Source: Microbacterium gubbeenense DSM 15944
GTDB lineage: Bacteria > Actinomycetota > Actinomycetes > Actinomycetales > Microbacteriaceae
Direction of reading: 5' to 3'
Assembly (NCBI RefSeq): GCF_000422745.1
Contig: NZ_AUGQ01000011.1
Coordinates: 1-64,000 of the forward strand
Length of the DNA stretch: 64,000 nucleotides
In this document: positions 29,357-44,607 of the stretch, one piece after another
Numbering within the stretch: the first letter of the stretch is position 1
Layout of the letters: each line of letters starts with the position of its first letter
Notes under the pieces: generated by a model
What the model was told of the DNA's origin: nothing
Databases searched by the model: none
The model's input: the letters and a program-made list of their open reading frames with translations, nothing else
Program-made: the position numbers and the translations under genes

Positions 29357-30552
29357 CGAACCACACCCTGCAGCTTGCCGACCGCGTGCGCGGCCTTACG
29401 GCGCCGACGACCTTCGGGCGGGTGTTGGGCGTGCCGCCTGAGGGATCCGTCGCGCTCACGAGCGGATCGCCGGACGTCGGTCTCCTGCCTGCCGACGAGA
29501 TCGCTGACGCCACGGCGGCCGTGATCGCGGATCCTGTTCGTCGCGCGCGGGCGCTCGACTACGCGGCGCGACCCGGCAGCCTCGAGCTGCGCGAATGGAT
29601 CGCGGCTCGCGAGGGCGTCGATCCGTCGCGCGTGTTCATCACGAACGGTGCCCTGCACGCGATCTCGGTGTCGCTGCAGTCCACGGTCAACCCCGGCGAC
29701 GTGCTCGTCGTGGAGAGCCCGCTGTACCCGCTCGCGCTGTCGGTCGCCCAGCTCACGGGCGCCGTCGTCGAGACGGTGCCGACCGACGCGCACGGGCTCG
29801 ACGTCGACGCGCTCGAGGCGAAGCTGTCGGCCGGTCTGCGCCCGGCGGCCGTGTACGTCGTGCCCGACTTCCAGAACCCCTCTGGCGCCGTGCTCGCCCC
29901 GGAGCGCCGCGTGCGCCTCGTCGAGCTCGCGGAGCGCTACGGCTTCGTCGTCGTCTCCGACAACCCGTACGCGACGCTGCGGTGGGCGGGGGAAGTCATC
30001 CCCGACCTCGACCCGGCGAGCGATCGCGTCATCCACGCGAACACGTTCTCGAAGGTGCTCGGGCCGGGGCTGCGCGTGGGCTGGCTCGTGCTGCCCGAGT
30101 GGGCGTACCCGGGCGCGGTCGACATCCGCGCGCGCACCGACCAGCACCCGTCGAGCCTCATTCAGGAGATCGTCGCCGAGATCGCGGCGCGCCGCGGCCG
30201 GTTCGACGAGATCGCTCGCCGCGCGACCGCCGAGTACGCCGTGCGGGCCGAGGCGCTCATCGGCGGGCTGCGCGACGGCCTCGGCGACGCGATCGACGTG
30301 GCAACCCCAGAGGGCGGCCTCTTCGCCTGGGTCAGGCTGAACCGGGTCGGCGCGGACGAGCTCGCCGAGCACCTCGCGAACCGCGGAATCCTCGTGAATC
30401 CGGGAAGCCAGTTCTCGCCCGCGGGGACCGCGACGGCCGACACGCTCGCGCGGATCCGCCTGACGTTCGCGCGCCACGACGCCGATACGCTGAGACAGGC
30501 CGCGCGATCGATCTCCGAGGCCCATCACGACCTGGAGGCCGCACGCCGATGA
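29353..30552 (+). CDS. PLP-dependent aminotransferase, class I/II
   Basis: The 399-residue fold-type I enzyme resembles the aminotransferase half of MocR proteins but has no helix-turn-helix. Key parts are GALHAISVSLQSTVNPGDVL, VVPDFQNPSGAVL, the Asp-Asn-Pro-Tyr segment SDNPYATLRW and the PLP lysine in NTFSKVLGPGLRVGWL. The substrate is unknown; the family includes 2-aminoadipate and branched-chain aminotransferases and C-S lyases. It overlaps the oxidoreductase gene and the GNAT fusion gene by 4 bp each. Confidence 0.88.
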   Translation: MTNHTLQLADRVRGLTAPTTFGRVLGVPPEGSVALTSGSPDVGLLPADEIADATAAVIADPVRRARALDYAARPGSLELREWIAAREGVDPSRVFITNGALHAISVSLQSTVNPGDVLVVESPLYPLALSVAQLTGAVVETVPTDAHGLDVDALEAKLSAGLRPAAVYVVPDFQNPSGAVLAPERRVRLVELAERYGFVVVSDNPYATLRWAGEVIPDLDPASDRVIHANTFSKVLGPGLRVGWLVLPEWAYPGAVDIRARTDQHPSSLIQEIVAEIAARRGRFDEIARRATAEYAVRAEALIGGLRDGLGDAIDVATPEGGLFAWVRLNRVGADELAEHLANRGILVNPGSQFSPAGTATADTLARIRLTFARHDADTLRQAARSISEAHHDLEAARR

Positions 30553-31961
30553 GCGTTCAGATCACCCGCACCGACTGGTTCGACGAGCACGTCACCGCGT
30601 TCCGCGACCAGATGGACGCCGAGATCCAGCCGCGCTACGCGCACGTGCGCGATCAGGTGCCGCGCGTCGAGGTCGACACCGACACGATCCTCGTCACCCT
30701 CATCGCGACGTCCGGCGGCGAGCCCGTCGGCACGGTCGCCCTCAAGCGCACCGGCGACTTCGGCGAGGTCAAGCGGCTCTTCGTGCACGAGCGCGGCCGC
30801 CGCCTCGGCGTCGCGGTCGCGCTGATGACCGCGATCGAGCAGGCGGCGAGCGAGGAGGGCTTCCGCGAGCTGTTCCTGCAGACCGGCAGCGAGCAGCCGC
30901 AGGCCATGGCGCTGTACGAGCGCGAGGGGTGGATCCCCGTGACCCCGTTCGGCCCGTACGCGGGCGACACGATCCTCAGCCGCTGCTACGTCAAGAACCT
31001 CGTGTCGCCGATCGTGGCGGCCGAGGTGCGGCAGGACGGATCCGTTGACGGCGTGCTCTCGACGATCACCGCGCTCGACGAGGCGGGCGCCGACCTCGCG
31101 CTCGTCGATGACGGCACGCTCGACGGCGCGGGCGGATCCTCGCTCGACGCGCCGCTCGTCGCGGCCGCGGCCGTCACCGAGGCGCCCCGGATCGCGGTCG
31201 CGCCGCGCGTGCGCGTCACGCACACCGAACCGTTCAACGTCGCCAAGGCGATCCAGAGCCTCGACTGGAGCTCGGCCGGCCGCGCCGGCTGGCTCGTCGG
31301 CGTCTCGGAGACGGCGGCAGAGGCTTCCGCCGTCGGACGCCGCCCCGCGCCCGAATCCGAGACCGCTTGGGCGGAGGCGGCCGCGGTCATCGACACGTCG
31401 CGCCGTCTGTGGGACTCGTGGGAGGACGACGCCGAGATCCGTGATGAGTCGACCGGTCGGTTCATCGACGCCGGCCGCGTGCACTACGTCGACGTCGAGA
31501 CCGAGTGGTTCAGCGTCAAGGGCCCCTCGATCGTGCCGCGCTCGCCGCAGGGCCAGATCCCCGTGATCGTCGAGGCGGCGCTCGACGATTCATCGCTCGA
31601 GGTCGCGGCCGCCGAGGCCGACATCGTGCGCGTTTCGGGTCCGCGCGCGGGGGAGACCGCCCGCCGCGTGCGGGAGCTCGCCGGCGCCCGCCCCGTGCGG
31701 GTGCTGGTCGATCTCGATCCCGAGAGCGTGATCGCCGCCCCGCACGCGCGCTCCGACGACGAGCAGTTCGCGGCGTGGGCCGCGTTCGTGCGCGCGGCGT
31801 CGGGCGCCGACGGCGTCGTGCTGACCGGATCCGCCGCCGCGAACGCGCGCGCCGCACGCGCGATCGCCGGGGCCCGCGGATCCGCGCGCACGCTGCGCGA
31901 GAGAATCGGGCTCGAACGGCCCGCCAGCAGATACGCGGCACCGGAAGGAACGACCCGATGA
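30549..31961 (+). CDS. GNAT acetyltransferase fused to a luciferase-like monooxygenase domain
   Basis: The 470-residue protein has two enzyme domains. Residues 1-157 are a GNAT fold with GEVKRLFVHERGRRLGVAVA (acetyl-CoA loop, a variant of RxxGxG/A) and ALYEREGWIPV. Residues 160-470 form a compact NtaA/SnaA-like LLM barrel with EPFNVAKAIQSLDWSSAGRA, LWDSWEDDAEI, VHYVDVETEWFSVKGPSIVP and SPQGQIPVI. It would acetylate an amino group and may also oxidise the product. The barrel lacks part of the usual C-terminal region and ordinary family length is about 430, so it could be a degenerate partner of the next gene's enzyme. 4-bp overlaps on both sides. Confidence 0.85.
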   Translation: MSVQITRTDWFDEHVTAFRDQMDAEIQPRYAHVRDQVPRVEVDTDTILVTLIATSGGEPVGTVALKRTGDFGEVKRLFVHERGRRLGVAVALMTAIEQAASEEGFRELFLQTGSEQPQAMALYEREGWIPVTPFGPYAGDTILSRCYVKNLVSPIVAAEVRQDGSVDGVLSTITALDEAGADLALVDDGTLDGAGGSSLDAPLVAAAAVTEAPRIAVAPRVRVTHTEPFNVAKAIQSLDWSSAGRAGWLVGVSETAAEASAVGRRPAPESETAWAEAAAVIDTSRRLWDSWEDDAEIRDESTGRFIDAGRVHYVDVETEWFSVKGPSIVPRSPQGQIPVIVEAALDDSSLEVAAAEADIVRVSGPRAGETARRVRELAGARPVRVLVDLDPESVIAAPHARSDDEQFAAWAAFVRAASGADGVVLTGSAAANARAARAIAGARGSARTLRERIGLERPASRYAAPEGTTR

Positions 31962-33241
31962 CGAAGCGCCAGGTTCACCTCGGGGCGCACTTCCCGGGCG
32001 TCAACGCGACGACGATCTGGACGCGCCCGGAATCGGGCAGCCAGATCGACCCGGCCTCGTTCGCGCACCTCGCCCGCACCGCCGAGCGCGGCTTCATGGA
32101 CCTCATGTTCCTCGCCGAGGGGCTGCGCCTGCGCGAGCATGCGGGCGAGATCCACGACCTCGACGTCGTCGGCCGCCCCGACACGCTCGTGCAGCTCGCG
32201 CAGGTGGCGCGCCAGACCTCGCACATCGGGCTCGTCGCGACGCTCAGCACGACCTTCAACGAGCCGGCGGAGTTCGCGCGCCAGCTCGCAACGCTCGACG
32301 CGCTGTCGAACGGGCGCGCCGCGTGGAACCTCGTCACGAGCCACGGCGCCTTCTTCGGGGCGAACTTCCGCCGGGGCGGCTTCCTCGCCGACGACGACCG
32401 CTACGCGCGGGCCGAGTCGTTCACCGACGCCGTGTTCGCGCTGTGGGACGCGGCGGGAACGGGCGAAGAGGTGCGCGTGTCGGACGAGTTCTTCGACATC
32501 GCCGCCCGGCCGACCGTTCCGCCGACCCCGCAGGGCCGCCCGGTCGTGATGCAGGCCGGTGTGTCGCCCGAGGGGCGCGAGATCGCCGCCCGCTACGCCG
32601 ACGCGATCTTCTCGCCGTTCGCCGCCGGTCCCGCCGCGGAGGACTTCGCGGCCGATATGCGTCGCCGGCTCACGGCGCACGGCCGCGCGGACGACGCGCT
32701 CAAGATCCTGCCCGGCACCGGGTTCGCCCTCGGCGACACGCACGAGGAGGCGCTCGAGCAGGCCGAGCGCGACCGGTGGGATCAGGTGAGCCCCGCGACC
32801 GCGGTGCGCCAGATCGAGACGATCTGGGGCCGCCGCTTCGAGGGCTTCGACGCCGAGGGCGCGCTGCCGCCGATCGGCGACGTCGTCGAGGGCGTGGAGC
32901 TGTCGGCGGGGCGCGCGAAGGTACACACGGACAATCGCGCGCAGGCGGCCGAGCTCATCGAGCGGGCCGAGGCAGAGGGCCTGACCGCACGTGCCGTCGT
33001 GGTCGCGACGACGACGCGTCGCTCGCCGCTGGTGGGAACCGCGTCCGAGGTCGCGCAGATCATCGACGAGTCGGTGCAGGAGCGCCGGAGCGACGGGTTC
33101 ATGATCATTCCGTCGATCACTCCGACCGGCCTCGATCGCTTCGTCGACGAGGTCGTGCCCGAGCTGCAGAACCGCGGCTCGTACCGCACGGAATGGACGG
33201 GCCGCACGCTGCGGGAGAACCTCGGATCCACCGGAGCGTGA
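31958..33241 (+). CDS. NtaA/SnaA/CmoJ-family flavin-dependent monooxygenase
   Basis: The 427-residue LLM enzyme is of full family length. Landmarks are LGAHFPGVNATTIWTRPES, FMDLMFLAEGLRLRE, LDALSNGRAAWNLVTSHG, RYARAESFTDAVFALWD and QAGVSPEGREIAARYADAIF. The family, which includes nitrilotriacetate monooxygenase and DszA, uses reduced FMN supplied by a separate reductase. The B. subtilis relative CmoJ cleaves a C-S bond in N-acetylated S-succinocysteine, which fits the acetyltransferase encoded just before, but the substrate here is not proven. It is the last gene of the overlapping operon; helY starts 22 bp later. Confidence 0.87.
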   Translation: MTKRQVHLGAHFPGVNATTIWTRPESGSQIDPASFAHLARTAERGFMDLMFLAEGLRLREHAGEIHDLDVVGRPDTLVQLAQVARQTSHIGLVATLSTTFNEPAEFARQLATLDALSNGRAAWNLVTSHGAFFGANFRRGGFLADDDRYARAESFTDAVFALWDAAGTGEEVRVSDEFFDIAARPTVPPTPQGRPVVMQAGVSPEGREIAARYADAIFSPFAAGPAAEDFAADMRRRLTAHGRADDALKILPGTGFALGDTHEEALEQAERDRWDQVSPATAVRQIETIWGRRFEGFDAEGALPPIGDVVEGVELSAGRAKVHTDNRAQAAELIERAEAEGLTARAVVVATTTRRSPLVGTASEVAQIIDESVQERRSDGFMIIPSITPTGLDRFVDEVVPELQNRGSYRTEWTGRTLRENLGSTGA

Positions 33242-33263
33242 CCCGCCGTGGTGAGATGGGGGA

Positions 33264-35669
33264 ATGAGCTCCGCGACGCCCGCTGAAAACTACGCCGAGG
33301 CGCGCGCCGAGCGCGACTACCCCGAGACGGCGGCGTTCGCTCGCGCGCAGCGCTTCGACCTCGATCCGTTCCAGCTCGAGGGCTGCCGCGCGCTCGAGCG
33401 CGGATCGAGCGCGCTCGTGGCCGCCCCGACGGGGGCGGGGAAGACGATCGTCGGCGAGTTCGCGATCCACCTCGCGATGGCCTCCGCGCGCGACAAGGCG
33501 TTCTACACGACGCCCATGAAGGCGCTGTCGAACCAGAAGTTCCGCGAGCTGCAGGAGGTGTACGGCGCCGACAACGTCGGCCTGCTCACCGGCGACACGA
33601 ACATCAACTCGCACGCGCGCGTCGTCGTGATGACGACCGAGGTCCTGCGCAACATGATCTACGCCGGATCGGGCGCCCTCGACGACCTCCGCTACGTCGT
33701 CATGGACGAGGTGCACTACCTCGCGGACCGGTTCCGCGGCGCGGTGTGGGAGGAGGTCATCATCCACCTCCCGCAGAGCGTTCGGCTCGTGGGGCTGTCG
33801 GCGACGGTGTCGAACGCCGAGGAGTTCGGCGACTGGATCGGCACCGTGCGCGGCGGCACCGAGGTCATCGTCTCGGAGATCCGGCCCGTGCCGCTCGAGC
33901 AGCACGTGCTCGCCCGCGGCGAGCTGGTGCCCCTGTTCGACGGCCGCGGCACCGACGTGAACCGCGAGCTCCTGCGCATGGGCCCGGGGCTGAGCTCGGG
34001 CGGCGGCGGTCACCACCGCGGCCGGGGGCGGGGAAAGCAGGTCGTCCGGCCGCCGCGCGGGGGCGGACGGCTCGACCGCGCCCGCGCGATCGAGCTGCTG
34101 GATCGCCAGCACCTGCTGCCCGCGATCTTCTTCATCTTCAGCCGCGTCGGGTGCGACCAGGCGGTCGTGCAGACGCGGCACGCGGGGATCCGCGTCACGA
34201 CGCCCGAGGAGCGCAGCGAGATCCGCCGCATCGTGCACGAGCGCACGGCGGCGCTGCAGGACGAGGACCTGGGCGTGCTGGGCTTCTACGAGTGGTCGAG
34301 GGACCTCGAGCGCGGCATCGCGGCGCACCACGCGGGCCTCCTCCCGGCGTTCAAGGAGGTCGTTGAGGAGCTCTTCCAGAAGAAGCTCGTGAAGGTCGTC
34401 TTCGCGACCGAGACGCTCGCGCTCGGCATCAACATGCCGGCTCGCACGGTCGTGCTCGAGAAGCTCGAGAAGTTCAACGGCGAGACGAGGGCGCCGATCA
34501 CGTCGGGGGAGTACACGCAGCTGACGGGCCGCGCGGGCCGGCGCGGAATCGATGTCGAGGGACACGCGGTCGTGCACTGGTCGGACGGCATGAACCCCGA
34601 GGCGGTGGCCTCGCTCGCCTCGCGCCGCACCTACCCGCTGAACTCGTCGTTCCGGCCGACGTACAACATGGCCGTGAACCTCATCGACCAGTACGGCCGG
34701 CCCGCCGCGCGCGACATCCTCGAGTCGTCGTTCGCGCAGTTCCAGGCCGACCGCGCGGTGGTCGACATCGCGCGGGAGGTCAAGCGGGCCGAGGAATCGC
34801 TCGACGGGTACCTCGAGGCGATGACCTGCCACCTGGGCGACTTCGCCGAGTATGCGGGGATCCGGCGCGAGCTGAGCGACCTCGAGAAGAAGGCGCGCAA
34901 GGACGTCTCGGCGTCGAAGGCGCGCACGGAGCAGCGGCGCCAGAAGATGGCGCGGCTGAAGAAGAACATGCAGCGACACCCCTGCCACCAGTGCGCCGAC
35001 CGCGAGAAGCACGCGCGCTGGGGCGAGCGGTACTACCACCTGAAGCGGCGCACCGACAAGCTGCGCCGCGAGATCGACACGCGCACGGGCACGGTCGCAC
35101 GCCAGTTCGACCGGATCGTCGATGTGCTCGTCGTGCTCGACTACGTGGCGATCGAGAAGGGCGAGGCGACCCTGACGGATACGGGCGCCCGCATGAAGCG
35201 CATCTACGGCGACCGCGACCTGCTCGTGGCCGAGTCGCTGCGGCAGGAGCTGTGGACGAGCCTCGATCCCGCCTCGCTCGCGGCGCTCGCGTGCTGCCTC
35301 GTCTACGAGCCGCGGCGCACTGAGCAGGGCGAGGGCCCGCTGCCGCGCGGACCGTTCCGCGATGCCCTCGACGCGACCGACCGGCTGTGGGCCGATCTCG
35401 ATGACCTCGAGCAGCAGCACCGGCTGCCCGGCACATCGCCGATCGCGCCGGGCCTGGCGCAGGCGATGCACATGTGGGCGAACGGCCAGCTGCTCGATCG
35501 CGTGCTCGGCGCGGCTGACATGGCCGCCGGCGACTTCGTGCGCTGGACGAAGCAGACGATCGACCTGCTCGACCAGATCTCGATGGTCGCCGAGGGCGAC
35601 CTCTCCCGCACGGCTCGCCGGTCCCTGGACGCGGTGCGCCGAGGAATCGTGGCCTACTCGGCGGTCTGA
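33264..35669 (+). CDS. helY: Ski2/Mtr4-like DEVH-box helicase HelY
   Basis: The 801-residue helicase has motif I AAPTGAGKTIVGEF, motif II VMDEVHYL, motif III GLSATVSN and motif VI QLTGRAGRRGID, plus the C-terminal DSHCT-type region. Related proteins unwind RNA with a single-stranded tail. In most actinobacteria helY directly follows tatC; here the accessory block separates them. The sequence upstream (TGAGAT six bases before the ATG, plus GGGGGAA) allows its own start of transcription. It is shorter than the mycobacterial protein of about 900 residues, mainly because variable segments are absent. Confidence 0.93.
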   Translation: MSSATPAENYAEARAERDYPETAAFARAQRFDLDPFQLEGCRALERGSSALVAAPTGAGKTIVGEFAIHLAMASARDKAFYTTPMKALSNQKFRELQEVYGADNVGLLTGDTNINSHARVVVMTTEVLRNMIYAGSGALDDLRYVVMDEVHYLADRFRGAVWEEVIIHLPQSVRLVGLSATVSNAEEFGDWIGTVRGGTEVIVSEIRPVPLEQHVLARGELVPLFDGRGTDVNRELLRMGPGLSSGGGGHHRGRGRGKQVVRPPRGGGRLDRARAIELLDRQHLLPAIFFIFSRVGCDQAVVQTRHAGIRVTTPEERSEIRRIVHERTAALQDEDLGVLGFYEWSRDLERGIAAHHAGLLPAFKEVVEELFQKKLVKVVFATETLALGINMPARTVVLEKLEKFNGETRAPITSGEYTQLTGRAGRRGIDVEGHAVVHWSDGMNPEAVASLASRRTYPLNSSFRPTYNMAVNLIDQYGRPAARDILESSFAQFQADRAVVDIAREVKRAEESLDGYLEAMTCHLGDFAEYAGIRRELSDLEKKARKDVSASKARTEQRRQKMARLKKNMQRHPCHQCADREKHARWGERYYHLKRRTDKLRREIDTRTGTVARQFDRIVDVLVVLDYVAIEKGEATLTDTGARMKRIYGDRDLLVAESLRQELWTSLDPASLAALACCLVYEPRRTEQGEGPLPRGPFRDALDATDRLWADLDDLEQQHRLPGTSPIAPGLAQAMHMWANGQLLDRVLGAADMAAGDFVRWTKQTIDLLDQISMVAEGDLSRTARRSLDAVRRGIVAYSAV

Positions 35670-35679
35670 CCCCCCAAAC

Positions 35680-35736
35680 CTTCATTTCTGGCACGTCTCT
35701 TCATCTGCCAGATGAAGAGACGTGCCAGAAATGAGG
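35680..35736. repeat. Long near-perfect palindrome between helY and trmD
   Basis: Two 25-base arms (35683-35707 and 35709-35733) are exact inverted copies separated by a single base; a T-A, a G-T and a C-G pair extend it to 57 bases. Its composition is far poorer in G and C than the surroundings. It begins 11 bp after the helY stop and ends two bases before the -10 box of trmD. It has no T-run, so it is not a classical terminator. It could be an operator, a REP-like element or an mRNA-end protector for helY. Confidence 0.85.
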
Positions 35737-35738
35737 AA

Positions 35739-35744
35739 TAGCAT
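35739..35744 (+). promoter_or_regulatory. Leaderless -10 box of trmD
   Basis: TAGCAT lies exactly six bases before the GTG at 35751. The -35 position falls inside the right arm of the palindrome, so a protein bound to the palindrome would affect this promoter. Confidence 0.55.
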
Positions 35745-35750
35745 CGGGGG

Positions 35751-36437
35751 GTGCGCATCGATATCGTGACCATCTTCCCGTCCTTCTTCGATGTCCTCGA
35801 TGTCTCGCTCATCGGCAAGGCGCGCGAATCCGGAGTGCTCGACCTGCGCGTCAAGGACCTCCGCGATCACGCCCACGATCGCCACCGCACCGTCGACGAC
35901 ACGCCGTACGGCGGCGGGGCCGGCATGGTGATGAAGCCCGAGCCGTGGGGCGAGGCGCTCGACGAGATCCTCGGCGACGACTCGGTGCTCGTCGTACCGA
36001 CCCCGTCCGGCGAGGTGTTCACCCAGTCCACGGCGCGCGAGCTCGCCGAGGAGAGCCACCTCGTGTTCGCGTGCGGCCGCTACGAGGGCATCGACCAGCG
36101 CGTGCTCGACCACTACGCCTCCCGCGGGCGCGTACGGCAGGTGAGCATCGGCGATTACGTGCTCAACGGCGGCGAGGTGGCGTCGATGGCCATGATCGAG
36201 GCGATCGGTCGGCTCATCCCCGGCGTCGTCGGCAACCCCGAGAGCCTCGTCGAGGAATCGCACGAGCTCGGCATGCTCGAGTACCCGATCTACACCAAGC
36301 CGGCCGAATGGCGCGGCCTCACCGTGCCCGACGTGCTGCTCAGCGGCCACCACGCGAAGATCGCCGACTGGCGCCGCGACCAGTCGCTCGAGCGCACGCG
36401 CGAGCGCCGCCCCGACCTGCTGGATCGCCCCGAGTGA
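35751..36437 (+). CDS. trmD: tRNA (guanine-37-N1)-methyltransferase
   Basis: The 228-residue SPOUT methyltransferase makes m1G37, preventing frameshifting. Landmarks are [52 protein letters not shown] and [10 protein letters not shown], which build the SAM-binding knot. In many bacteria trmD is next to rimM and rplS; here rplS is about 6 kb away with the molybdenum cofactor genes between. The stop overlaps the mogA start (GTGA). Confidence 0.96.
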
Positions 36438-36904
36438 TCCGCGCCGCCGTCATCACCGTGAGCGACCGCTCCTTCGCGGGGCAGCGCGAGGATCTCGCGG
36501 GACCCGCGGCGGTTCAGGCGCTCGCCGACCAGGGATGGCAGGCGGATCTCCGCGTCGTCCCCGACGGATCCGCGAGCGTCTCAGGCGCCATCCGCGCGGC
36601 GATCGCATCGGGCGCGCGCCTCGTCGTCACGACGGGAGGTACGGGCATCGCCCCGCGCGATGAGACCCCCGAGGGCACGCGCGAGGTCATCGACCGCGAG
36701 ATCCCCGGGATCTCGGACGCCCTGCGCGCGCTCGGATCCGAGGCGCCCGGCGCGCTGCTGTCCCGAGGCGTCGCGGGCGCGTCGGGCGATGCGCTCGTCG
36801 TGAATCTGCCCGGATCCCCGCGGGCGGTCACCGAGTCGATGCCGCTGATCCTCCGCGTCGCGCCGCACGCGCTCGCGCAGCTCAGCGGCGAGGATCACGC
36901 CTGA
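36434..36904 (+). CDS. mogA: Molybdenum cofactor biosynthesis protein, MogA/MoaB family
   Basis: The 156-residue protein is of the MPT-binding fold. Landmarks are [60 protein letters not shown] and [10 protein letters not shown]. It adenylylates molybdopterin before metal insertion. The GTG start overlaps the trmD stop by 4 bp, so its translation is tied to a tRNA-modification gene. The remaining cofactor genes follow on the opposite strand. Confidence 0.9.
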
Positions 36905-36907
36905 CGC

Positions 36908-37141
36908 TCACCCGCCCGCGAACGGCGGCAGCACGTCGATCGTCTCGGATCCGCAGAGCGCGACGTCGTCGTCGTGACGGGATCCGTCGACGAGCACGGC
37001 GCAGCGCGGCAGGATGCCGGCAAGACCCGCGTGGTCGGCGACGATGCCGAGGCGGAGCGCGTCGAGCGTCGGCTCCGTGCGCCGCTCGGAGGCGAGGCCG
37101 GCGGCCTCCTCAGCGGCCGCGAAGTAGCGAACCGTCGTCAT
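36908..37141 (-). CDS. moaD: MoaD-like sulfur carrier protein
   Basis: The 77-residue ubiquitin-fold protein begins TTVRYFAAAEEAAG and ends LPPFAGG, with the free Gly-Gly C-terminus that is adenylylated by MoeB and thiocarboxylated. It carries the sulfur for molybdopterin synthase. The catalytic partner MoaE is not encoded in this cluster. It overlaps the DUF6457 gene by 4 bp (ATGA) and is the last gene of the minus-strand operon. Confidence 0.88.
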   Translation of the reverse strand: MTTVRYFAAAEEAAGLASERRTEPTLDALRLGIVADHAGLAGILPRCAVLVDGSRHDDDVALCGSETIDVLPPFAGG

Positions 37142-37386
37142 GCGTTCCACCCCTTCGCGAGCGCCGTGACCCGGGATATCGCCCCGGCCGCGTCGCCGTC
37201 GCGCCCGGCCGCGAGGCCCGCGAGGAAGGCCGTGAGCGGCGCCGCGGGGCGGGCAACCCCGTGTGCGACGTCGCGGGCGAGGTCGAGCACGAGCGCGATA
37301 TCGACGTCGGCGGGGCTCAGCCCGAGCTCGGCGCAGGCGGCGCGCGTCCACTCGTCGAGCGCCTCGGGAGGCAGATGCTCGGCCAT
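37138..37386 (-). CDS. DUF6457 family protein in the molybdenum cofactor cluster
   Basis: The 82-residue helical protein has LPPEALDEWTRAACAELGL, VLDLARDVAHGVARPAAPL and TAFLAGLAAG, matching the small domain often found beside or fused to MobA in actinobacteria. Function unknown; the context points to cofactor synthesis or attachment. It overlaps moaD by 4 bp and moaC by 1 bp. Confidence 0.78.
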   Translation of the reverse strand: MAEHLPPEALDEWTRAACAELGLSPADVDIALVLDLARDVAHGVARPAAPLTAFLAGLAAGRDGDAAGAISRVTALAKGWNA

Positions 37387-37868
37387 CAGAACCCCTCTCC
37401 GTCGCGGACCCAGTCGCCGCTGCGACCGCCCGTCTTCTTCACGATGCGGGCGCTCTCGATGAGCGCCGTGCGATCGATGCCCTTGACCATGTCGAGCACG
37501 GCGAGCGCCGCGACCGTGACGGCCGTGATGGCCTCCATCTCGACCCCCGTGCGGTCGGCGGTCCGGCACGTCGCCTCGATGAAGACGCCGTCGTCGTCGA
37601 CGCGCAGATCGACGCTCGCCCCGTGCACGCCGATCACGTGCGCGAGCGGCAGGAGCTCGGGCGTGCGCTTCACGGCCTGGATCCCCGCGACGCGCGCCAC
37701 GGCGAGCACGTCCCCCTTGGGCACGGATCCGTCGCGCAGCGCCGCGATCGTCGAGGCGGCTGCGCGCACGAATCCGCGCGCCGTGGCGGCGCGGACCGTC
37801 GGCTGTTTCTGCGTGACGTCGACCATGCGGGCATGGCCGGAGGCATCGAGGTGGGTGAAAGTGCTCAT
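37386..37868 (-). CDS. moaC: Cyclic pyranopterin monophosphate synthase
   Basis: The 160-residue enzyme has HLDASGHARMVDVTQKQPT, GDVLAVARVAGIQAVKRTPE, LPLAHVIGVHGASVDLRV, GVEMEAITAVTVAALAVLDM and the catalytic Lys-rich end IVKKTGGRSGDW. It converts the MoaA product to cyclic pyranopterin monophosphate. ATG 37868 overlaps the moeA stop (ATGA). Confidence 0.95.
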   Translation of the reverse strand: MSTFTHLDASGHARMVDVTQKQPTVRAATARGFVRAAASTIAALRDGSVPKGDVLAVARVAGIQAVKRTPELLPLAHVIGVHGASVDLRVDDDGVFIEATCRTADRTGVEMEAITAVTVAALAVLDMVKGIDRTALIESARIVKKTGGRSGDWVRDGEGF

Positions 37869-39067
37869 GCGAACAGCATGACATCCACGACGTCGCCCGG
37901 CGCGACGAACGCCGTCTCGGCGTCGACGATCGCGTAGGCGTCGGCGAGCCCGAGGCCGCCGGCGAGGTGGGATCCGGAACCCCCCGCGGTCGCGGGGCGC
38001 ACGCCCGCGCCGTCCCACGCGACGGGGATGACCTGCGTGCGGCCGACGGGCGTGCGCCAGCCCTCGGTCGCCGGGAACCTCCCGCGCGGCCGATCGATCT
38101 GGGCGCGCCCCTGGAGCGCGAGCAGTGCGGGCCGCACGAACATCTCGAACGACACCGCGACGCTCACGGGGTTGCCGGGGAGGCCGAAGAACAGCGCGCC
38201 GTCTTCCAGCACGCCAAACGCCTGCGGTTTGCCGGGCTGCATCGCGACCCGGTCGAAGCGGATCCGCTTATCGAGCGCGAGCTTGACGGGTTCGTACGCG
38301 CCGGCGCTGACGCCGCCCGAGGTGATCACGACGTCGGCCGCCGTGTGCTCCAGCCGCTCGAGCAGCTCTGCGGGATCATCGCCGACGTGCGCTCTGACGA
38401 CGACCTCGGCGCCGGCCTGGGCGCACAGGCGTTCGAGCAGGGTCGAGTTCGAGTCGGGGATCTCGCTGGCGCCCGGCACGACACCGGGCGCGGTGAGTTC
38501 CGCGCCGGTCGAGACGACGGCGACGCGGGGTCGGCGCGCGACCGCGACGGAGGTCACCCCGGAAGCGATGAGCGAGGAGATCTGGAGGGGGCCGAGCGGC
38601 CGGCCGGCCGGAAGGGCGATGTCGCCCGCCGCGAGATCCTCCGCGCGACGCCGGATGTGCGCGCCGCGGGCGCGGGGTGCGCGCGTGACGCGGATGGATC
38701 CGAGCGAGTCGGCCAGGCCGCCCGCCGTGTCCTCGAACGGCACGATCGCATCGGCTTCTGTCGGTACCGGCGCGCCCGTCATGATCCTCGCCGCGTCTCC
38801 CGCGGCGAGGCGGGGATCGTCCGCGGATCCGGCGGGCACGTCCGCGACGACCCGCAGCGTCGCACCACCGGCCTTGACGTCATCGAAGCGCACCGCGAAC
38901 CCGTCCATCGCCGAGTTGTCGAAGGCGGGGATATCGAGAAGGGAGAGCGCATCGGCGACGAGCGTGCGGCCCTCGGCGCCGGTGACCGGCAGCTCCTCGG
39001 AGCCGAGGCGTGAGACGGCCGCGAGGATCCGCTCGCGATGCTCGCCGATCGGGACGAGCGCGCTCAT
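37865..39067 (-). CDS. moeA: Molybdopterin molybdenumtransferase
   Basis: The 400-residue enzyme inserts molybdate into adenylylated molybdopterin. Landmarks are IPAFDNSAMDGFAVRFDDV, RIMTGAPVPTEADAIVPFED, VAVVSTGAELTAPG, EIPDSNSTLLERLCAQAG, VVITSGGVSAGAYEPVKLAL and FGLPGNPVSVAVSFEMFV, covering all four domains. It overlaps moeB and moaC by 4 bp each. Confidence 0.94.
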   Translation of the reverse strand: MSALVPIGEHRERILAAVSRLGSEELPVTGAEGRTLVADALSLLDIPAFDNSAMDGFAVRFDDVKAGGATLRVVADVPAGSADDPRLAAGDAARIMTGAPVPTEADAIVPFEDTAGGLADSLGSIRVTRAPRARGAHIRRRAEDLAAGDIALPAGRPLGPLQISSLIASGVTSVAVARRPRVAVVSTGAELTAPGVVPGASEIPDSNSTLLERLCAQAGAEVVVRAHVGDDPAELLERLEHTAADVVITSGGVSAGAYEPVKLALDKRIRFDRVAMQPGKPQAFGVLEDGALFFGLPGNPVSVAVSFEMFVRPALLALQGRAQIDRPRGRFPATEGWRTPVGRTQVIPVAWDGAGVRPATAGGSGSHLAGGLGLADAYAIVDAETAFVAPGDVVDVMLFA

Positions 39068-40191
39068 GCGCCCGCGCGATCGCCGGCCGGATCCGCGGAT
39101 CCGAGCGCGTTCCAGGCCGCGATTCCGCCGGCGAGCGACCGGGTTCTGAGGCCCTCCCGCGCGAGCACGGCCGTCGCGCGCGCCGAACGGACGCCAGCCG
39201 CGCAGACGGTGACGATGTCGCGGCCCGCGGCGCGTTCGCTGATCCGCTCGGCAGCCGCGCGCGGGTCGCGCAGGATCTCGGGGAGAGGCAGCGCCATCGC
39301 GCCGGTAACGCCCGATCTCTCCCGCTCGCCCGCCGCGCGCACGTCGATGAGGAGCATCGTGTCGGGTATCAGGTCGGCCGCGCGGATCTCGACGGGCTCG
39401 GGAGACGCCGCGCCCGGGCGGCCCGAGGATCCCGTGAGCGGCACCTCGCGCGTGGTGCCGCGCAGCGCATCGACGAGGGCGATGCGCCCGACGAGCGGCT
39501 CGCCGATACCGGTGATCAGCAGGATCGCCTGCGTCGCCATGATCGATCCGACGTGCATCACGAGCGCGCCGAGCACGCCGACGTCGGCGCAGCTCGGGAG
39601 GTCGCCGGCCGACCCGGCGGGGTACAGGTCGCTGAGCCTCGTCGCGGTCGTGCCCGCGGGCGGCGCCGACCAGAAGACCGTGACCTGCGCGTGGAACTCC
39701 TGCACGACGCCCCACACGAGGGGCACGCCGAGGCTCTCGCAGGCGGCCGCGACGAGGAGGCGGGTGTCGAACGAGTCGGTGCCGTCGAGCACGAGGTCGG
39801 CCCCGCTCAGCACCTCCGCGGCGTTGTCGGCGGTGAGCCTTCTCGCGACGGCCGCGACGGTGCACTCGGGGGCGAGGTCGGCGGCCGCTCGGACCGCGCT
39901 GTCGACCTTCGGGGCGTCCACGTCGCGCACGCGGTGGATCACCTGGCGCTGCAGGTTGGAGTGCTCGACCACATCGTCGTCGATGACGGTGATCCTGCCC
40001 ACGCCCGCGGCGGCGAGCGCGAGGACGGCGGGGGATCCGAGGCCGCCGGCGCCGACGATCGCGACGTGTGCGGCGCGCAGCCGGCGCTGCCCGATCTCGC
40101 CGAGCGGATAGAGCGCGGCGTGGCGGGCGGTGCGCGCCGCTTCGGCGCCCGAGAGGCGGTCCGCGGGTGCCACGAGCGGGGGGAGAGACAT
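39064..40191 (-). CDS. moeB: MoeB/MoeZ-like adenylyltransferase with C-terminal rhodanese domain
   Basis: The 375-residue protein has a ThiF/MoeB domain (1-250) with HVAIVGAGGLGSPAVLALAA, the nucleotide-binding DDDVVEHSNLQRQVIH arginine-containing motif and GTDSFDTRLLVA. The rhodanese domain (about 275-370) has its active-site cysteine in VTVCAAGVRSARAT. It adenylylates and sulfurates the MoaD C-terminus. The CxxC pairs that bind structural zinc in E. coli MoeB are not evident. ATG 40191 is set by the leaderless box; an upstream extension is arginine-rich and not conserved. Confidence 0.9.
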   Translation of the reverse strand: MSLPPLVAPADRLSGAEAARTARHAALYPLGEIGQRRLRAAHVAIVGAGGLGSPAVLALAAAGVGRITVIDDDVVEHSNLQRQVIHRVRDVDAPKVDSAVRAAADLAPECTVAAVARRLTADNAAEVLSGADLVLDGTDSFDTRLLVAAACESLGVPLVWGVVQEFHAQVTVFWSAPPAGTTATRLSDLYPAGSAGDLPSCADVGVLGALVMHVGSIMATQAILLITGIGEPLVGRIALVDALRGTTREVPLTGSSGRPGAASPEPVEIRAADLIPDTMLLIDVRAAGERERSGVTGAMALPLPEILRDPRAAAERISERAAGRDIVTVCAAGVRSARATAVLAREGLRTRSLAGGIAAWNALGSADPAGDRAGA

Positions 40192-40197
40192 GATTCG

Positions 40198-40203
40198 AGA
40201 GTA
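40198..40203 (-). promoter_or_regulatory. Leaderless -10 box of the moeB-moaD operon
   Basis: On the minus strand TACTCT lies exactly six bases before the ATG at 40191. It faces away from the moaA box 33 bp further on, so the cofactor genes start from a compact divergent promoter region. Confidence 0.55.
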
Positions 40204-40235
40204 CTCACGCGCGAGCCGGCGGGCGCGCAGGGGCT

Positions 40236-40241
40236 TACGGT
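40236..40241 (+). promoter_or_regulatory. Leaderless -10 box of moaA
   Basis: TACGGT lies exactly six bases before the ATG at 40248. No molybdenum cofactor riboswitch fold was seen in the 56-bp divergent region, which is too short for one. Confidence 0.5.
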
Positions 40242-40247
40242 GGGGAG

Positions 40248-41306
40248 ATGACAGCCGTCCCGATCGTCCTGGCAGAGCGCGCGGATCTCGCATTCGCCGA
40301 TGCGCCGGGATCCGGGCCGCTCGTCGACCGGTTCGGGCGCGTGCACCGCGACCTGCGGATCTCGCTCACTGACCGGTGCTCGCTGCGCTGCACCTACTGC
40401 ATGCCCGAACAGGGCAACGAGTGGCTCGCCCGGCAGAGCATCTTGGGCACCGTCGAGATCGAACGCGTGGCGCGAATCGCCGCGTCGCTCGGCATCTCGA
40501 CGTTCCGCCTCACGGGCGGCGAGCCGCTGCTCCGGCGCGACCTGGAGGAGGTCATCGGCCGGCTGTCGGCGCTTGAAACCCCCGATGGGCCCGTCGAGAT
40601 CGCCATGACGACGAACGCGATCGGCCTGGATGAGCGGCTGCCGCGGCTCATCGACGCGGGGCTCGGCCGGCTCAACATCTCGGTCGACACGATCCGCGCC
40701 GACCGGTTCTCCGACCTCACGAGGCGCGACCGTCTGGGCGACGTGCTGGCGGGGATCCGCGCCGCATCGGAATCGGCGCTCACGCCGCTGAAGCTCAACG
40801 CCGTCGCCATGCGGGGCGTCAACGACGACGAGCTGGCGGATCTCGTGCAGTTCGCGATCGACCACGGCGCCCAGATGCGGTTCATCGAGCAGATGCCGCT
40901 TGACGCGGGGCACACGTGGGACCGCGCGCGGATGGTCACGCGGGACGAGATCCTCGAGGCGCTCGCCGAGCGCTGGGAGCTGACGGCGGTTCCCGGCCGG
41001 GGCGGCGCCCCCGCCGAATCCTGGCGCCTCGACGGATCCGCGCACACCGTTGGCGTCATCGCATCGGTCACCGCGCCGTTCTGCGGCGCGTGCGATCGGG
41101 TGCGCCTGACGGCCGACGGTCAGATGCGCAACTGCCTGTTCTCGAACAGCGAGTTCGACCTCGTGCCGATTCTGCGCGGCGGCGGATCCGATGCCGACAT
41201 CGAAGACCTGCTGCGGCGCTGCATCTGGAAGAAGCTGCCGGGGCACGCGATCAACGACCCCAGCTTCCTCCAGCCCGCGAGAGGGATGAACGCGATCGGC
41301 GGCTAG
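40248..41306 (+). CDS. moaA: GTP 3',8-cyclase
   Basis: The 352-residue radical-SAM enzyme starts cofactor synthesis. The N-terminal Fe-S cluster motif is CSLRCTYCMPEQ, the SAM motif FRLTGGEPLLRRDL, and the C-terminal second cluster CGACDRVRLTADGQMRNCLF. The chain ends in the functional Gly-Gly. It is transcribed divergently from moeB, and its stop codon overlaps the map stop on the other strand. Confidence 0.96.
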   Translation: MTAVPIVLAERADLAFADAPGSGPLVDRFGRVHRDLRISLTDRCSLRCTYCMPEQGNEWLARQSILGTVEIERVARIAASLGISTFRLTGGEPLLRRDLEEVIGRLSALETPDGPVEIAMTTNAIGLDERLPRLIDAGLGRLNISVDTIRADRFSDLTRRDRLGDVLAGIRAASESALTPLKLNAVAMRGVNDDELADLVQFAIDHGAQMRFIEQMPLDAGHTWDRARMVTRDEILEALAERWELTAVPGRGGAPAESWRLDGSAHTVGVIASVTAPFCGACDRVRLTADGQMRNCLFSNSEFDLVPILRGGGSDADIEDLLRRCIWKKLPGHAINDPSFLQPARGMNAIGG

Positions 41307-42070
41307 GCCTGCGACAGGATCAGGGGCCCGTCGGCGGTGATCGCGATCGTGTGCTCGCTGTGCGCGCCGCGGGATCCGTCGGCGCTCTTGAGCGTCCAGC
41401 CGTCGCCCTCATCGGTGATGAGCTTGTCGGTCGTCTGCAGGAACCACGGCTCGATCGCGACGACGAGGCCGGGCTTCAGCGGAAAGCCGCGCCCAGCGCG
41501 CCCGTTGTTCGGAATGTGCGGGTCGCCGTGCATCGTGCGGCCGACGCCGTGGCCGCCGAAGTCGGTGTTGATCTTCAGGCCCTCGGCGTGCGCGATCTCC
41601 GCGATCGCGGCCGAGATGTCGCCGACCTTGCCGCCGGGCTGGGCGGCGGCGATACCCGCCGCGAGGGCGCGCTCGGTCGTGTCGATGAGCCTGAGATCCT
41701 CGTCGCGCGGCGTGCCGACGACGAACGAGACGGCGGAGTCGGCGACCCAGCCGTTCACGGACACCGCGAAGTCGAGGGTGACGAGGTCGCCGTCCTGGAT
41801 GCGGTAGTCGAACGGCTTTCCGTGCAGCACGGCGTCGTTGATCGAGGTGCAGATCACGTAGCCGAACGGGCCGGATCCGAACGAGGGCGCGTAGTCGAGG
41901 TAGCAGCTCTCGGCGCCCGCGGCGCGGATCAGCTCGTGGGCGCGACGGTCGATGTCGAGCAGGTTCGTGCCGACCTTCGTCTCACCGCGGAGGGTCTTGA
42001 GCGTCTCGGCGACGAATCGGCCAGCAGGCCGCATCTCGTCGATCTCCGCGGGCGTGCGCAACTCGATCAT
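41303..42070 (-). CDS. map: Type I methionine aminopeptidase
   Basis: The 255-residue enzyme removes initiator methionine. Metal ligands are in VTLDFAVSVNGWVADSAVSF (two Asp), GGHGVGRTMHGDPHIPN (His), VVAIEPWF (Glu) and the final HSEHTIAI (Glu). AAAGGAA before ATG 42070 supports the start; longer frames upstream are not conserved. Map genes in actinobacteria are often near secY-adk; here it is beside moaA. Confidence 0.95.
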   Translation of the reverse strand: MIELRTPAEIDEMRPAGRFVAETLKTLRGETKVGTNLLDIDRRAHELIRAAGAESCYLDYAPSFGSGPFGYVICTSINDAVLHGKPFDYRIQDGDLVTLDFAVSVNGWVADSAVSFVVGTPRDEDLRLIDTTERALAAGIAAAQPGGKVGDISAAIAEIAHAEGLKINTDFGGHGVGRTMHGDPHIPNNGRAGRGFPLKPGLVVAIEPWFLQTTDKLITDEGDGWTLKSADGSRGAHSEHTIAITADGPLILSQA

Positions 42071-42323
42071 GGAATTCCTTTCGCGTGTCCGACCATTGTC
42101 GCGCACCCGCCCGGGTGCGCGCTGATCCCGGCGTTTCGCGTCGGTCGCCGGATGTGGCAGAATAGATCTTCGTGCCGTGATCGGTGCGCCCGTTGGTGCA
42201 CCAGGTTTCGACTCTGCCACAGGGGAGTCGAGGGAGGATCCGCGAGGATCGCCTCACGAGCACCGCTCTTCTTTCTTCCTTTTCACGCGGCCGACCTGTG
42301 GCGACTGCAGAGAGCGATTCATC
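42071..42323 (+). promoter_or_regulatory. map-rplS intergenic region with structured rplS leader
   Basis: A 20-base hairpin (42101-42120, GCGCACCC arms) lies between the divergent genes. CAGAAT at 42158-42163 is a plausible rplS -10 box, giving a 5' leader of about 150 bases. The leader has a 7-bp stem (42208-42214 with 42225-42231, loop TGCCACAGGG), smaller GC hairpins and a pyrimidine-rich run (about 42266-42283). The layout suits translational feedback by L19, but no known leader family was recognised. Confidence 0.45.
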
Positions 42324-42674
42324 ATGAACATCATCGATGCCGTCGACGCAGCCTCGCTGCGCACCGACATCCCCGCGTTCGGCCCGGGCGACACCGTCAA
42401 GGTGCACGTCAACATCATCGAGGGCAGCCGCTCGCGCGTTCAGGTGTTCCAGGGCGTCGTGCTCGGCCGTCAGGGCGCGGGCCTCGGCGAGACCTTCACG
42501 GTCCGCAAGGTCAGCTTCCAGGTGGGCGTCGAGCGCATGTTCCCGGTGCACTCGCCCGTCATCGAGAAGATCGAGCGCGTCAGCCGCGGCGACGTGCGCC
42601 GCGCGAAGATCTACTACCTGCGCGGTCTCACCGGCAAGAAGGCGAAGATCCGCGAGAAGCGCGACAACGCCTGA
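42324..42674 (+). CDS. rplS: 50S ribosomal protein L19
   Basis: The 116-residue ribosomal protein is at the 30S-50S interface. Landmarks are [55 protein letters not shown] and [20 protein letters not shown] 42324 gives the usual length. It is monocistronic or followed by partial read-through, since a strong terminator follows. Confidence 0.97.
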
Positions 42675-42693
42675 TCTCCGATCAGATTCATAG

Positions 42694-42733
42694 AGATCGC
42701 CCCGTGACGCCTGCGTCACGGGGCGATCTTCTT
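42694..42733 (+). terminator. Intrinsic terminator after rplS
   Basis: A 16-bp perfect stem (42694-42709 with 42714-42729) and a CCTG loop are followed by TCTT. It ends the rplS transcript 22 bp before lepB. Confidence 0.85.
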
Positions 42734-42750
42734 GTGGGAACCTGGAGCCG

Positions 42751-43482
42751 ATGACAAGCGAATCACCGACCTCGCCGCCCGCCCGACCGCCTCGGGGCCG
42801 GGGTGCGCTGGCGTTCGTGCGCGACGTCATCGTCATCGTCGTCGTCGCGGTGCTCGTCTCGGTGCTCATCAAGGCCTTCGTCGTGCGATCGTTCTACATC
42901 CCCTCCGCCTCGATGGAGCAGACGCTGATGGTCGACGACAAGATCCTCGTCGACGAGCTCACGGTCGATTGGACCGGATACGAGCGCGGCGATGTCGTCG
43001 TGTTCGAAGATCCGGGCGGGTGGCTGGAGGGCGCCGAGACCGAACCGCCCGGTGGGATCACCGGCGCGATCGACTGGGCGCTAAATGCCGTTGGCCTGTC
43101 CGCATCCGACTCCGAGGACCACCTCGTCAAGCGCATCATCGGCATGCCCGGCGACCACGTCCAGTGCTGCAACCAGCTCGGGCAGGTGACGGTGAACGGC
43201 GCCGGAATCGACGAGCTCGACTACCTCAACCTGCCGGACGGATCCACGCTCGCCTCGACGCAGGACTTCGACGTGACGGTGCCCGAGGGGGCCGTCTGGG
43301 TCATGGGTGACAACCGCAACAGGTCGCGCGACTCGCGGTACCACAACGAGCAGCCCGGCGGCGGCTTCGTGCCGATCGACAAGATCGTCGGGCGGGTCGT
43401 GCTGCGCACTTGGCCGCTCGACCGGTTCGGCACGCTCGAACACTCGACGGCCGCCGTGGGCGTTCCGGACGCGGCTCAGTGA
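42751..43482 (+). CDS. lepB: Signal peptidase I
   Basis: The 243-residue membrane-anchored peptidase cleaves secretory signal peptides. One segment (about 23-45) is followed by the catalytic serine in SFYIPSASMEQTL and the catalytic lysine in HLVKRIIGMPGDHV; the family box VWVMGDNRNRSRDSRYH is complete. An adjacent cysteine pair (CCNQ) is present in the beta domain. GGAG precedes the ATG by three bases. The stop overlaps rnhB (GTGA). Confidence 0.94.
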   Translation: MTSESPTSPPARPPRGRGALAFVRDVIVIVVVAVLVSVLIKAFVVRSFYIPSASMEQTLMVDDKILVDELTVDWTGYERGDVVVFEDPGGWLEGAETEPPGGITGAIDWALNAVGLSASDSEDHLVKRIIGMPGDHVQCCNQLGQVTVNGAGIDELDYLNLPDGSTLASTQDFDVTVPEGAVWVMGDNRNRSRDSRYHNEQPGGGFVPIDKIVGRVVLRTWPLDRFGTLEHSTAAVGVPDAAQ

Positions 43483-44141
43483 GCCCGGTCGCACCCACCC
43501 TCGAGCTCGAGACGCGGCTGCTCGACGAGGCGCCATTGCTGTTCGGCCTCGACGAGGTCGGTCGGGGCGCGCTGGCCGGACCGGTAACGGTCGGCGCCGC
43601 GGTCATCGACTCCTCGGCGTTGCGAGCCGGCGTGCCCGAGGGGCTGCGCGACTCGAAGCTCGTCACCGAGAAGAGGCGGCCGCAGGTCGCCGAGCGCACG
43701 GCCGCCTGGGTGCGCGGCACGGGGCTCGGGTGGGCGACGCCCGGCGAGGTCGACGAGGTCGGCATCATCGGCGCGCTCGGCCTGGCGGCGACCCGCGCGC
43801 TCGAGACCCTGCGCTCGCGCGGCTTCGATCCGGCGGAAGGGATCAGCCTGCTCGACGGCAACCACGACTATCTCTCGCGGATCGCGCTGCCGAGCCTCGG
43901 GAAGATCGACGTGCGCACCGTCATCAAGGGCGACCGCGACCAGGCCGTCATCTCCGCGGCCTCGATCGCGGCGAAGGTCTCGCGGGATGCCCTGATGGTC
44001 GATCTGCACGACCAGCACGAGGCGTACGCGTGGAACCGCAACAAGGGATACGCGAGCGCGGCCCATCGCGCGGCCATCGACGCGCACGGGCTCACGAACC
44101 ACCATCGGCGGTCGTGGGCGATCGGCCCGGCGCTGACCTGA
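43479..44141 (+). CDS. rnhB: Ribonuclease HII
   Basis: The 220-residue nuclease removes ribonucleotides from DNA-RNA hybrids. Active-site motifs are LFGLDEVGRGALAGPV (Asp-Glu), a later Asp in LLDGNHDYL and KGDRDQAVISAASIAAKVSRD. GTG 43479 overlaps the lepB stop; a longer frame upstream is out of register with the family. Gene order lepB-rnhB-DUF2469 is standard in actinobacteria. Confidence 0.95.
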   Translation: MSPVAPTLELETRLLDEAPLLFGLDEVGRGALAGPVTVGAAVIDSSALRAGVPEGLRDSKLVTEKRRPQVAERTAAWVRGTGLGWATPGEVDEVGIIGALGLAATRALETLRSRGFDPAEGISLLDGNHDYLSRIALPSLGKIDVRTVIKGDRDQAVISAASIAAKVSRDALMVDLHDQHEAYAWNRNKGYASAAHRAAIDAHGLTNHHRRSWAIGPALT

Positions 44142-44168
44142 GGCGAAGCCTCGTAGGATGGAACGACC

Positions 44169-44495
44169 ATGGATGAAGATGCATTTGAGGACTTCGATCG
44201 CGAGCTCGAGCTCTCGCTGTATCGCGAGTACCGCGACGTCGTCGGACAGTTCCAGTACGTGGTCGAGACCGAGCGCCGCTTCTACCTTGCCAACGACGTC
44301 AACGTCGTTCGGCACGACACCGAGCACGACTTCTACTTCGAGCTCACGATGCGCGACGTATGGGTGTGGGACATCTACCGCGCCGACCGCTTCGTGACGT
44401 CGGTGCGGGTGCTCACGTTCAAGGACGTCAACGTCGAAGAGCTCTCGCGGCGCGACTTCGAGCTGCCCGACGACCTGTCGATCGGCAAGCCCTGA
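44169..44495 (+). CDS. DUF2469 family protein
   Basis: The 108-residue acidic soluble protein has DRELELSLYREYRDVVGQF, RRFYLANDVNVV and WVWDIYRADRFVTSVRVLTF, which define this actinobacterial family of unknown function. TAGGAT at 44154-44159 may give it an extra promoter. Its fixed position between rnhB and yraN across actinobacteria suggests a nucleic-acid-related role, but nothing in the sequence proves it. Confidence 0.92.
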   Translation: MDEDAFEDFDRELELSLYREYRDVVGQFQYVVETERRFYLANDVNVVRHDTEHDFYFELTMRDVWVWDIYRADRFVTSVRVLTFKDVNVEELSRRDFELPDDLSIGKP

Positions 44496-44548
44496 CGACG
44501 CGCTCAGCGCGCTAACATTCGCGGATCTTCCGGATCCGTCCACACCAT

Positions 44549-44564
44549 CCGCGTGATCACGCGG
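44549..44564. promoter_or_regulatory. 16-bp perfect palindrome upstream of yraN
   Basis: CCGCGTGATCACGCGG reads the same on both strands. It is followed at 44567-44580 by a small hairpin (GCCCG and CGGGC with an AAAG loop). The 112-bp gap between DUF2469 and yraN holds TAACAT at 44513-44518 as a -10 candidate. A regulator site is possible; no family assignment. Confidence 0.4.
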
Positions 44565-44607
44565 GAGCCCGAAAGCGGGCCCGCGCCGGAAACGGCACGG
44601 TGGGGTC

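Follow-up and report, generated by a model that had tools for sequence, protein, structure and literature searches.

A perfect palindrome between helY and trmD

Between a helY-type helicase gene (33264–35669, plus strand; DEAD and DSHCT domains) and trmD (35751–36437, plus strand; called by NCBIfam), the genome of Microbacterium gubbeenense carries a long palindrome, which raises the question of whether this sequence serves the promoter of trmD, the end of the helY mRNA or its own propagation. In the window (the whole 64,000-nucleotide stretch of DNA analysed), the near-perfect 57-base palindrome of the original prediction was confirmed at 35680–35736. Its exact arms, predicted at 25 bases, are 26 bases long (35682–35707 and 35709–35734, the right arm being the exact reverse complement of the left), while the predicted one-base centre, C35708, and the perfect pairing both stood. 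One T-G pair and one C-G pair extend the arms to the 57-base hairpin, which has 27 RNA pairs and a 3-base loop. The left arm comprises a conserved outer part, TCATTTCTGGCAC, followed by a copy-specific half of the variable core; in this copy, the two halves of the core (35695–35721, 27 bases) are fully complementary to each other across C35708. The palindrome has no T-run and is far poorer in GC than its surroundings (47% versus 70.4% for the window), both as predicted.

The hairpin begins 10 bases past the helY stop codon (last base of helY, 35669), and 14 bases separate it from the trmD start (GTG at 35751). A C-run at 35670–35675 (plus strand) is predicted by folding to pair with the G-run at 35746–35751 and thus to close an outer stem. 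The RNA of 35670–35755 folds at −57.7 kcal/mol (z = −11.1; equalled by none of 200 shuffles), which makes the helY 3′ end the strongest fold of the 34 window gene 3′ ends tested (median −35.85); among 400 random 85-mers, none reached −57. Among the matches listed (25 of the 41 pairs in the window), the palindrome is also the longest fully complementary inverted repeat.

A dispersed repeat family, mainly in a few Microbacterium species

The arm that the original prediction had singled out for a wider search proved to be present in multiple copies, in M. gubbeenense itself and in relatives. In the M. gubbeenense genome (G000; 3.02 Mb, 99.96% complete), 14 places were found by Blast and 14 copies by a covariance model (28 matches, both strands), and the pattern CATTTCTGGCACN{15,40}GTGCCAGAAATG occurred 13 times, with no occurrence in 37 other genomes. 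With up to two mismatches, the 14-mer TTCATTTCTGGCAC gave 30 hits in this genome, of which the arms of the 14 copies account for 28; the other two are two-mismatch matches elsewhere, so that no single arm was found. The 14 copies support a dispersed palindromic repeat, and the helY–trmD palindrome is a member of a scattered family of such symmetric elements, whose known members come chiefly from a few Microbacterium species. The mobile-repeat reading of the original prediction thus held as regards dispersal, and two of the defining features of classical REPs (repetitive extragenic palindromes) fail, as described below.

A wide scan of genome contigs returned, among the matches listed, many copies in M. 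halotolerans (HT), M. halophytorum (HP), M. suaedae (SU), Candidatus M. stercoravium (ST) and 'Frigoribacterium sp. JB110' (JB). Copies with exact arms numbered 13 in M. gubbeenense, 26 in JB, 23 in HT, 11 in HP, 7 in ST and 5 in SU; the covariance model, which was trained on the collected copies themselves, counted 14 in M. gubbeenense, 26 in HT, 14 in HP, 8 in ST and 10 in SU, a total of 72 over these five genomes, 59 of them with exact arms. Weak SU matches came in addition, and the one examined was an unrelated hairpin. Across the five relatives, the copy number therefore ranges from 8 to 26. In a genus-wide scan (119 genomes, E≤1), six genomes matched, of which G000, G041 (JB) and G058 (SU) did so well and three others weakly; in a family-wide scan under stricter filters (398 genomes, E≤0.001), the seven matching genomes were G000, G058, G198 (two places, best 1.3e-9), G241 (8.4e-8), G294, G346 and G421. 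The two places in G198, a member of another genus of the family, are long perfect palindromes (L270 and L277) that share GAGATGTCC outer arms, have inner arms close to those of the M. gubbeenense family and both follow stop codons.

Beyond the family, isolated matches, among those listed, were seen in Olsenella (two species), an Atopobiaceae metagenome-assembled genome (MAG; two copies), Demequina (two species), Duganella/Rugamonas and others; these may be distant relatives or chance. The same 10-base arms occur in the Atopobiaceae MAG (L059 4481–4526 and L132, which share GTGAG outer bases), in Olsenella (L058/L120) and in Demequina (L047/L052), and the palindromes have a length of 46 in the Coriobacteriia, as against 37 in Demequina. 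The family consensus had no match in plasmids and phages. A viral-contig search returned two stretches, in nearly identical low-GC phage-like contigs and inside a coding frame, which were judged to be chance. The 19 Rfam matches up to E = 10 all lay under the gathering scores and were mostly microRNA hairpins, and the open-access literature yielded no report of such a repeat in Microbacterium.

The copies consist of arms CTTCATTTCTGGCAC/GTGCCAGAAATGAAG that flank a variable, mostly self-complementary core, with the consensus (Y)AAYTCTTCATTTCTGGCAC, a core of 27–28 bases and GTGCCAGAAATGAAGAGTT(R). A total of 86 copies were collected by the arm pattern TTTCTGGCAC ... GTGCCAGAA[A/C] (L028 being the sole non-exact one), so the invariance of the arms is in part by construction; lengths of 33–63, and later of 37–56, were allowed, and the segment from TTTCTGGCAC to GTGCCAGAAA was 48 long in 77 of the 86 copies and 47 in the other 9. 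The element as a whole measures 57 bases between helY and trmD and can reach about 84 where C/G-rich outer arms are counted in; the C-rich and G-rich flanks seen at helY–trmD are also present in the copies of M. gubbeenense, ST and SU.

The JB110 records (NZ_FUIA01, for example L044) have orthologous flanks that are mostly about 88–95% identical to M. halotolerans, and the genome is classed in the same genus as the window. Since JB110 thus behaves like a genome closely related to M. halotolerans, its 'Frigoribacterium' label is probably wrong.

Most copies lie behind stop codons

Gene ends were taken from a codon-usage gene caller, which gave a position to 84 of the 86 copies: the neighbouring genes are convergent for 41 and tandem for 43, and no copy has divergent neighbours or falls within a called gene. 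In the window and the 8-kb loci around copies, the 220 element-free gaps of at least 70 bases comprise 130 tandem, 68 divergent and 22 convergent ones, against 38 tandem, 0 divergent and 31 convergent gaps with elements in the same loci (Fisher's test, P = 6e-10 for divergent and 1e-9 for convergent; the counts are not independent, because the loci are partly orthologous across species and were chosen for holding copies). In tandem gaps, the median distance from the upstream stop codon to the first base of TTTCTGG is 18 bases; 39 of the 43 copies are closer to the upstream stop than to the next start, and 41 begin within 50 bases of the stop (the exceptions at 93 and 127). Among 11 further non-exact copies (HT, HP and SU), six are tandem, four convergent and one divergent, the last being the copy before trmD in SU, and two (L310 and L316) lie far from the upstream stop. 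The genes next to the M. gubbeenense copies (20 of 27 distinct ones scanned, three without a match) include metX, a sulfhydrylase gene, nhaA, mazG, an adenosine deaminase gene, rpsT, nadA, a Clp-type ATPase gene and others.

No U-tract follows the stem: in 125 tails of 10 bases, the longest T-run was 3 and there were at most five T. A canonical intrinsic terminator was rejected on this count, in agreement with the original prediction that the palindrome does not look like a standard terminator.

These positions bear directly on whether the palindrome is an operator or promoter part of trmD. A −10-like TAGCAT (35739–35744, plus strand) lies outside the hairpin and is the same in three species, trmD would have a leaderless start, and a −35 at 17-base spacing from TAGCAT would sit inside the right arm, where it had been predicted; the spacing agrees with this, yet a promoter scan of 30000–45000 gave zero sites, so that the overlap is to be taken as geometry. 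In favour of a role at trmD, the copy before this gene is kept in M. gubbeenense, ST and SU, with its right end and TAGCAT conserved, and in SU it is kept although the upstream neighbour there is not helY. However, 13 further copies lie elsewhere in the M. gubbeenense genome, the placed exact-arm copies avoid divergent regions, and no exact or near copy was seen ahead of trmD in HT, JB, HP or the other relatives compared. Since the copies are placed after stop codons rather than in promoter regions, the trmD operator was rejected as highly improbable, and the suggested dimer-of-dimers operator found no support. The same placement makes a role at the helY 3′ end plausible, so the palindrome is better read as a gene-end element than as an operator of trmD; of the suggestion that it stabilizes the helY mRNA, the 3′-end location thus held up, and protection itself would be one of the possible consequences. 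The gene helY precedes trmD in M. gubbeenense and ST, not in M. suaedae, and in several other relatives the coding sequence reaches to a few bases from trmD. A TGGCAC, which we take to resemble a sigma-54 box, was set aside as coincidence.

Pairing within the core

Covariation was measured on 60 of 72 reference copies; L099 (JB), whose outer arms differ, was excluded though it is among the 86 copies. Pair changes on both sides filled 105 cells, against 67.3 ± 6.2 in shuffled alignments (reached in 0 of 500), and 86.8% of cells were paired, against 83.6 after shuffling (0 of 500). The number of pairs with changes in both partners (115 of 500) and that of pair types (85 of 500) were not significant in these 60 copies. 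In addition, core halves fit their own partner better than the partners of other copies in M. gubbeenense (25 of 5,000 permutations), ST (184) and SU (432), with 0 of 5,000 when pooled across the three species, a test in which the pooling mixes species. For HT, JB and HP, ungapped arm identity is misleading owing to a one-base bulge, and core halves were compared by folding; no covariation was found there (pooled, 4,236 of 5,000).

History at orthologous sites

The copy before trmD is common to M. gubbeenense, ST and SU: ATGAGGAATAGCATCG is identical in all three, and the left half of the core differs. The M. gubbeenense copy is a perfect palindrome and that of ST an imperfect one; because the right half, TGAAGRGA, is shared, the left half of the M. 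gubbeenense copy appears to have been rewritten to match the right.

The comparison with ST covered the M. gubbeenense loci other than L034 and the two L035 copies; 11 of the 14 were located there. Seven of them hold a family copy there, that of L033 being degenerate, and four do not (L028, L031, L038 and L040). The L028 site is empty in both ST and SU, where the stop codons lie a few bases apart, and holds a hairpin in M. gubbeenense; at this one site, no target duplication was evident by eye. At the sites of L031, L038 and L040, ST carries other predicted hairpins instead of family copies. All eight ST copies adjoin an M. gubbeenense copy by at least one flank, but the neighbours have changed at two (L065 and L069). 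When the M. gubbeenense genome was searched for the sequence across the L040/L065 breakpoint, nothing was found. L034 and L039 of M. gubbeenense are different loci with identical cores, and the ST ortholog of L039 has a different core (0.54).

Among 19 JB–HT pairs, 18 differ at 0–2 of 30 arm positions, 20 of which were fixed by the search, and one matched by a single flank (L099/L116) has six arm differences. Twelve pairs of cores match directly (0.82–1.00), three match only when inverted (L084/L119, L087/L128 and L087/L054; 0.96–1.00), one matches better inverted (0.82 versus 0.68) and three match poorly in both orientations. Across a wider distance, HT, JB and HP likewise carry an element at the site of the M. 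gubbeenense copy at C5:73.0 kb, where the two flanks are 67–76% identical, and the site at C5:69.8 kb has a one-flank match in HT and JB; at both sites the cores are clade-specific. Errors of replication at hairpins could by themselves also have inverted cores and perfected arms.

A candidate role at mRNA 3′ ends

We consider it moderately probable that the family is a REPIN-like repeat that acts as a bidirectional 3′-end element, which would end transcription without a U-tract and/or protect mRNA 3′ ends. Read from either strand, a copy would fold into one long RNA hairpin some 10–20 bases past a stop codon, and this hairpin would stop transcription, shield the 3′ end or do both. The copy between helY and trmD would close the helY mRNA and keep helY transcription out of trmD, whose start lies directly beyond. 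An RNA hairpin at mRNA 3′ ends is proposed because of the position, symmetry and pairing of the copies and because other hairpins occur at the same sites. The 41 convergent and 0 divergent copies out of 84 (68 of 220 element-free gaps being divergent), the 39 of 43 tandem copies nearer to the upstream stop than to the next start, the covariation and the fit of the M. gubbeenense core halves all speak for it, as do the 14 copies in M. gubbeenense, the other long hairpins predicted at three of the same sites in ST, the nearest relative, the empty L028 site in two relatives and the mycobacterial U-less hairpins described as terminators. Against it stand the absence of a U-tract, the dispute over termination by such hairpins, the two non-significant covariation measures, the HT, JB and HP core halves without covariation, the SU copy between divergent genes and the two copies far from a stop. 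Moreover, a plain hairpin needs neither fixed arm bases nor a fixed length, and the combination of arm-base conservation, constant length and exchange of cores calls for a sequence-specific factor or copying. Copies might thus spread or swap sequence in the manner of REPINs, with a putative sequence-specific factor keeping the arms.

A purely selfish miniature repeat of the MITE or REPIN type, spread by a putative recombinase and found at 3′ ends as harmless insertion sites, would account for the fixed length with inverted conserved ends, for the filled L028 site and for the identical cores of L034 and L039. It is nonetheless rather unlikely, as the M. gubbeenense genome has no partner element bearing these ends, a Y1 transposase was found in none of 12 genomes, the sole empty site gave no evident target duplication, and old sites have been retained down to 67–76% flank identity. 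Within the M. gubbeenense genome, where the 14 copies account for 28 of the 30 arm hits, a MITE derived from a resident element that carries such ends was rejected. A DNA site at which an architectural or roadblock protein recognizes both arms by sequence at fixed spacing, with the RNA hairpin incidental, would explain the conserved arm bases, the 47–48 spacing and why arms are always paired in M. gubbeenense; yet the core halves of M. gubbeenense, ST and SU keep a pairing that a DNA site does not need, and the copies are tied to gene ends, which leaves this reading improbable. As for how a 3′-end element could keep its arms while its core changes, a RAYT-independent exchange system is a speculative and quite unlikely option: a putative sequence-specific factor would recognize the paired arms, and cores would be copied, perfected or flipped between fixed 3′-end sites. 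If so, hairpins at gene ends would undergo concerted evolution, forming a pool of modules that can replace one another.

Relation to known repeats

In the available excerpt of PMC3116915, REPINs are inverted REP doublets associated with RAYTs, with invariant inverted ends, a length-conserved spacer with compensatory changes, an extragenic location and a single hairpin. Inverted invariant ends, a constant spacer and compensatory changes were likewise found here, some covariation measures not being significant. Unlike REPINs, the Microbacterium family has no Y1/RAYT gene (Y1_Tnp, PF01797: 0 of 12 genomes, six of them carriers; the control was detected in 5 of 14), no single arms in M. gubbeenense, 8–26 copies and no GTAG tag. 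REPs, as the excerpt of PMC3733652 describes them, are 20–40 bp long with GTAG or CGTC end tags, and most of them occur past the ends of coding regions, where the neighbouring genes are tandem or convergent; the location is the same here, whereas the element has 57 or more bases and, on inspection, its arm consensus lacks either tag. By analogy, the family may work like a REP/REPIN, with REPIN anatomy and REP location, and it is not filed as one because it has no Y1 transposase, no GTAG/CGTC tag and no single arm; a RAYT-driven REP was rejected, with no Y1 transposase in the 12 genomes.

Mycobacterial U-less (I-shaped) hairpins within 50 bp of the stop codon have been described as terminators, a function that is disputed (PMC12288462, in part). 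The 41 of 43 tandem copies within 50 bases of a stop resemble them in position and in lacking a U-tract, but what characterizes I-shaped terminators in that excerpt is their shape and position rather than membership in a repeat with a conserved sequence and a conserved length. Paired DNA uptake sequences are also conserved short inverted pairs that form gene-end hairpins; there are about 1000 or more of these sequences, single ones included (PMC1852404, as excerpted), in contrast to the 14 pairs and zero single arms of M. gubbeenense, and were rejected on this ground. Families of stem-loop containing repeats likewise share an intergenic stem-loop, and the high-GC genomes named in the excerpt of PMC2267715 are Corynebacterium and Mycobacterium, not Microbacterium.

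REPs are usually accompanied by a Y1 transposase, and paired uptake sequences by many single ones. The present family keeps its arm bases and length while the core changes, with neither a Y1 transposase nor single arms where these were tested, and its 14 copies in M. gubbeenense offer a small, countable set for the old question of selfish spread versus service to mRNA 3′ ends. An integron attC site was considered for the AAC/GTT flanks, which presumably resemble attC features, and was set aside; these flanks are only weakly conserved.

Other gene-end hairpins were seen alongside the family. Palindromes of another type, with arms GGTCGCCA/TGGCGAC, occur in ST (L235 838–973), where two follow each other at the site of the M. 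gubbeenense L031 copy, and once in M. suaedae (L113 5769–5822); they are possibly a second family of gene-end hairpins. In the window, a loop-less perfect inverted repeat of 18 bases at 42694–42729, after a gene ending at 42674, is an ordinary gene-end hairpin of the M. gubbeenense genome without the family arms.
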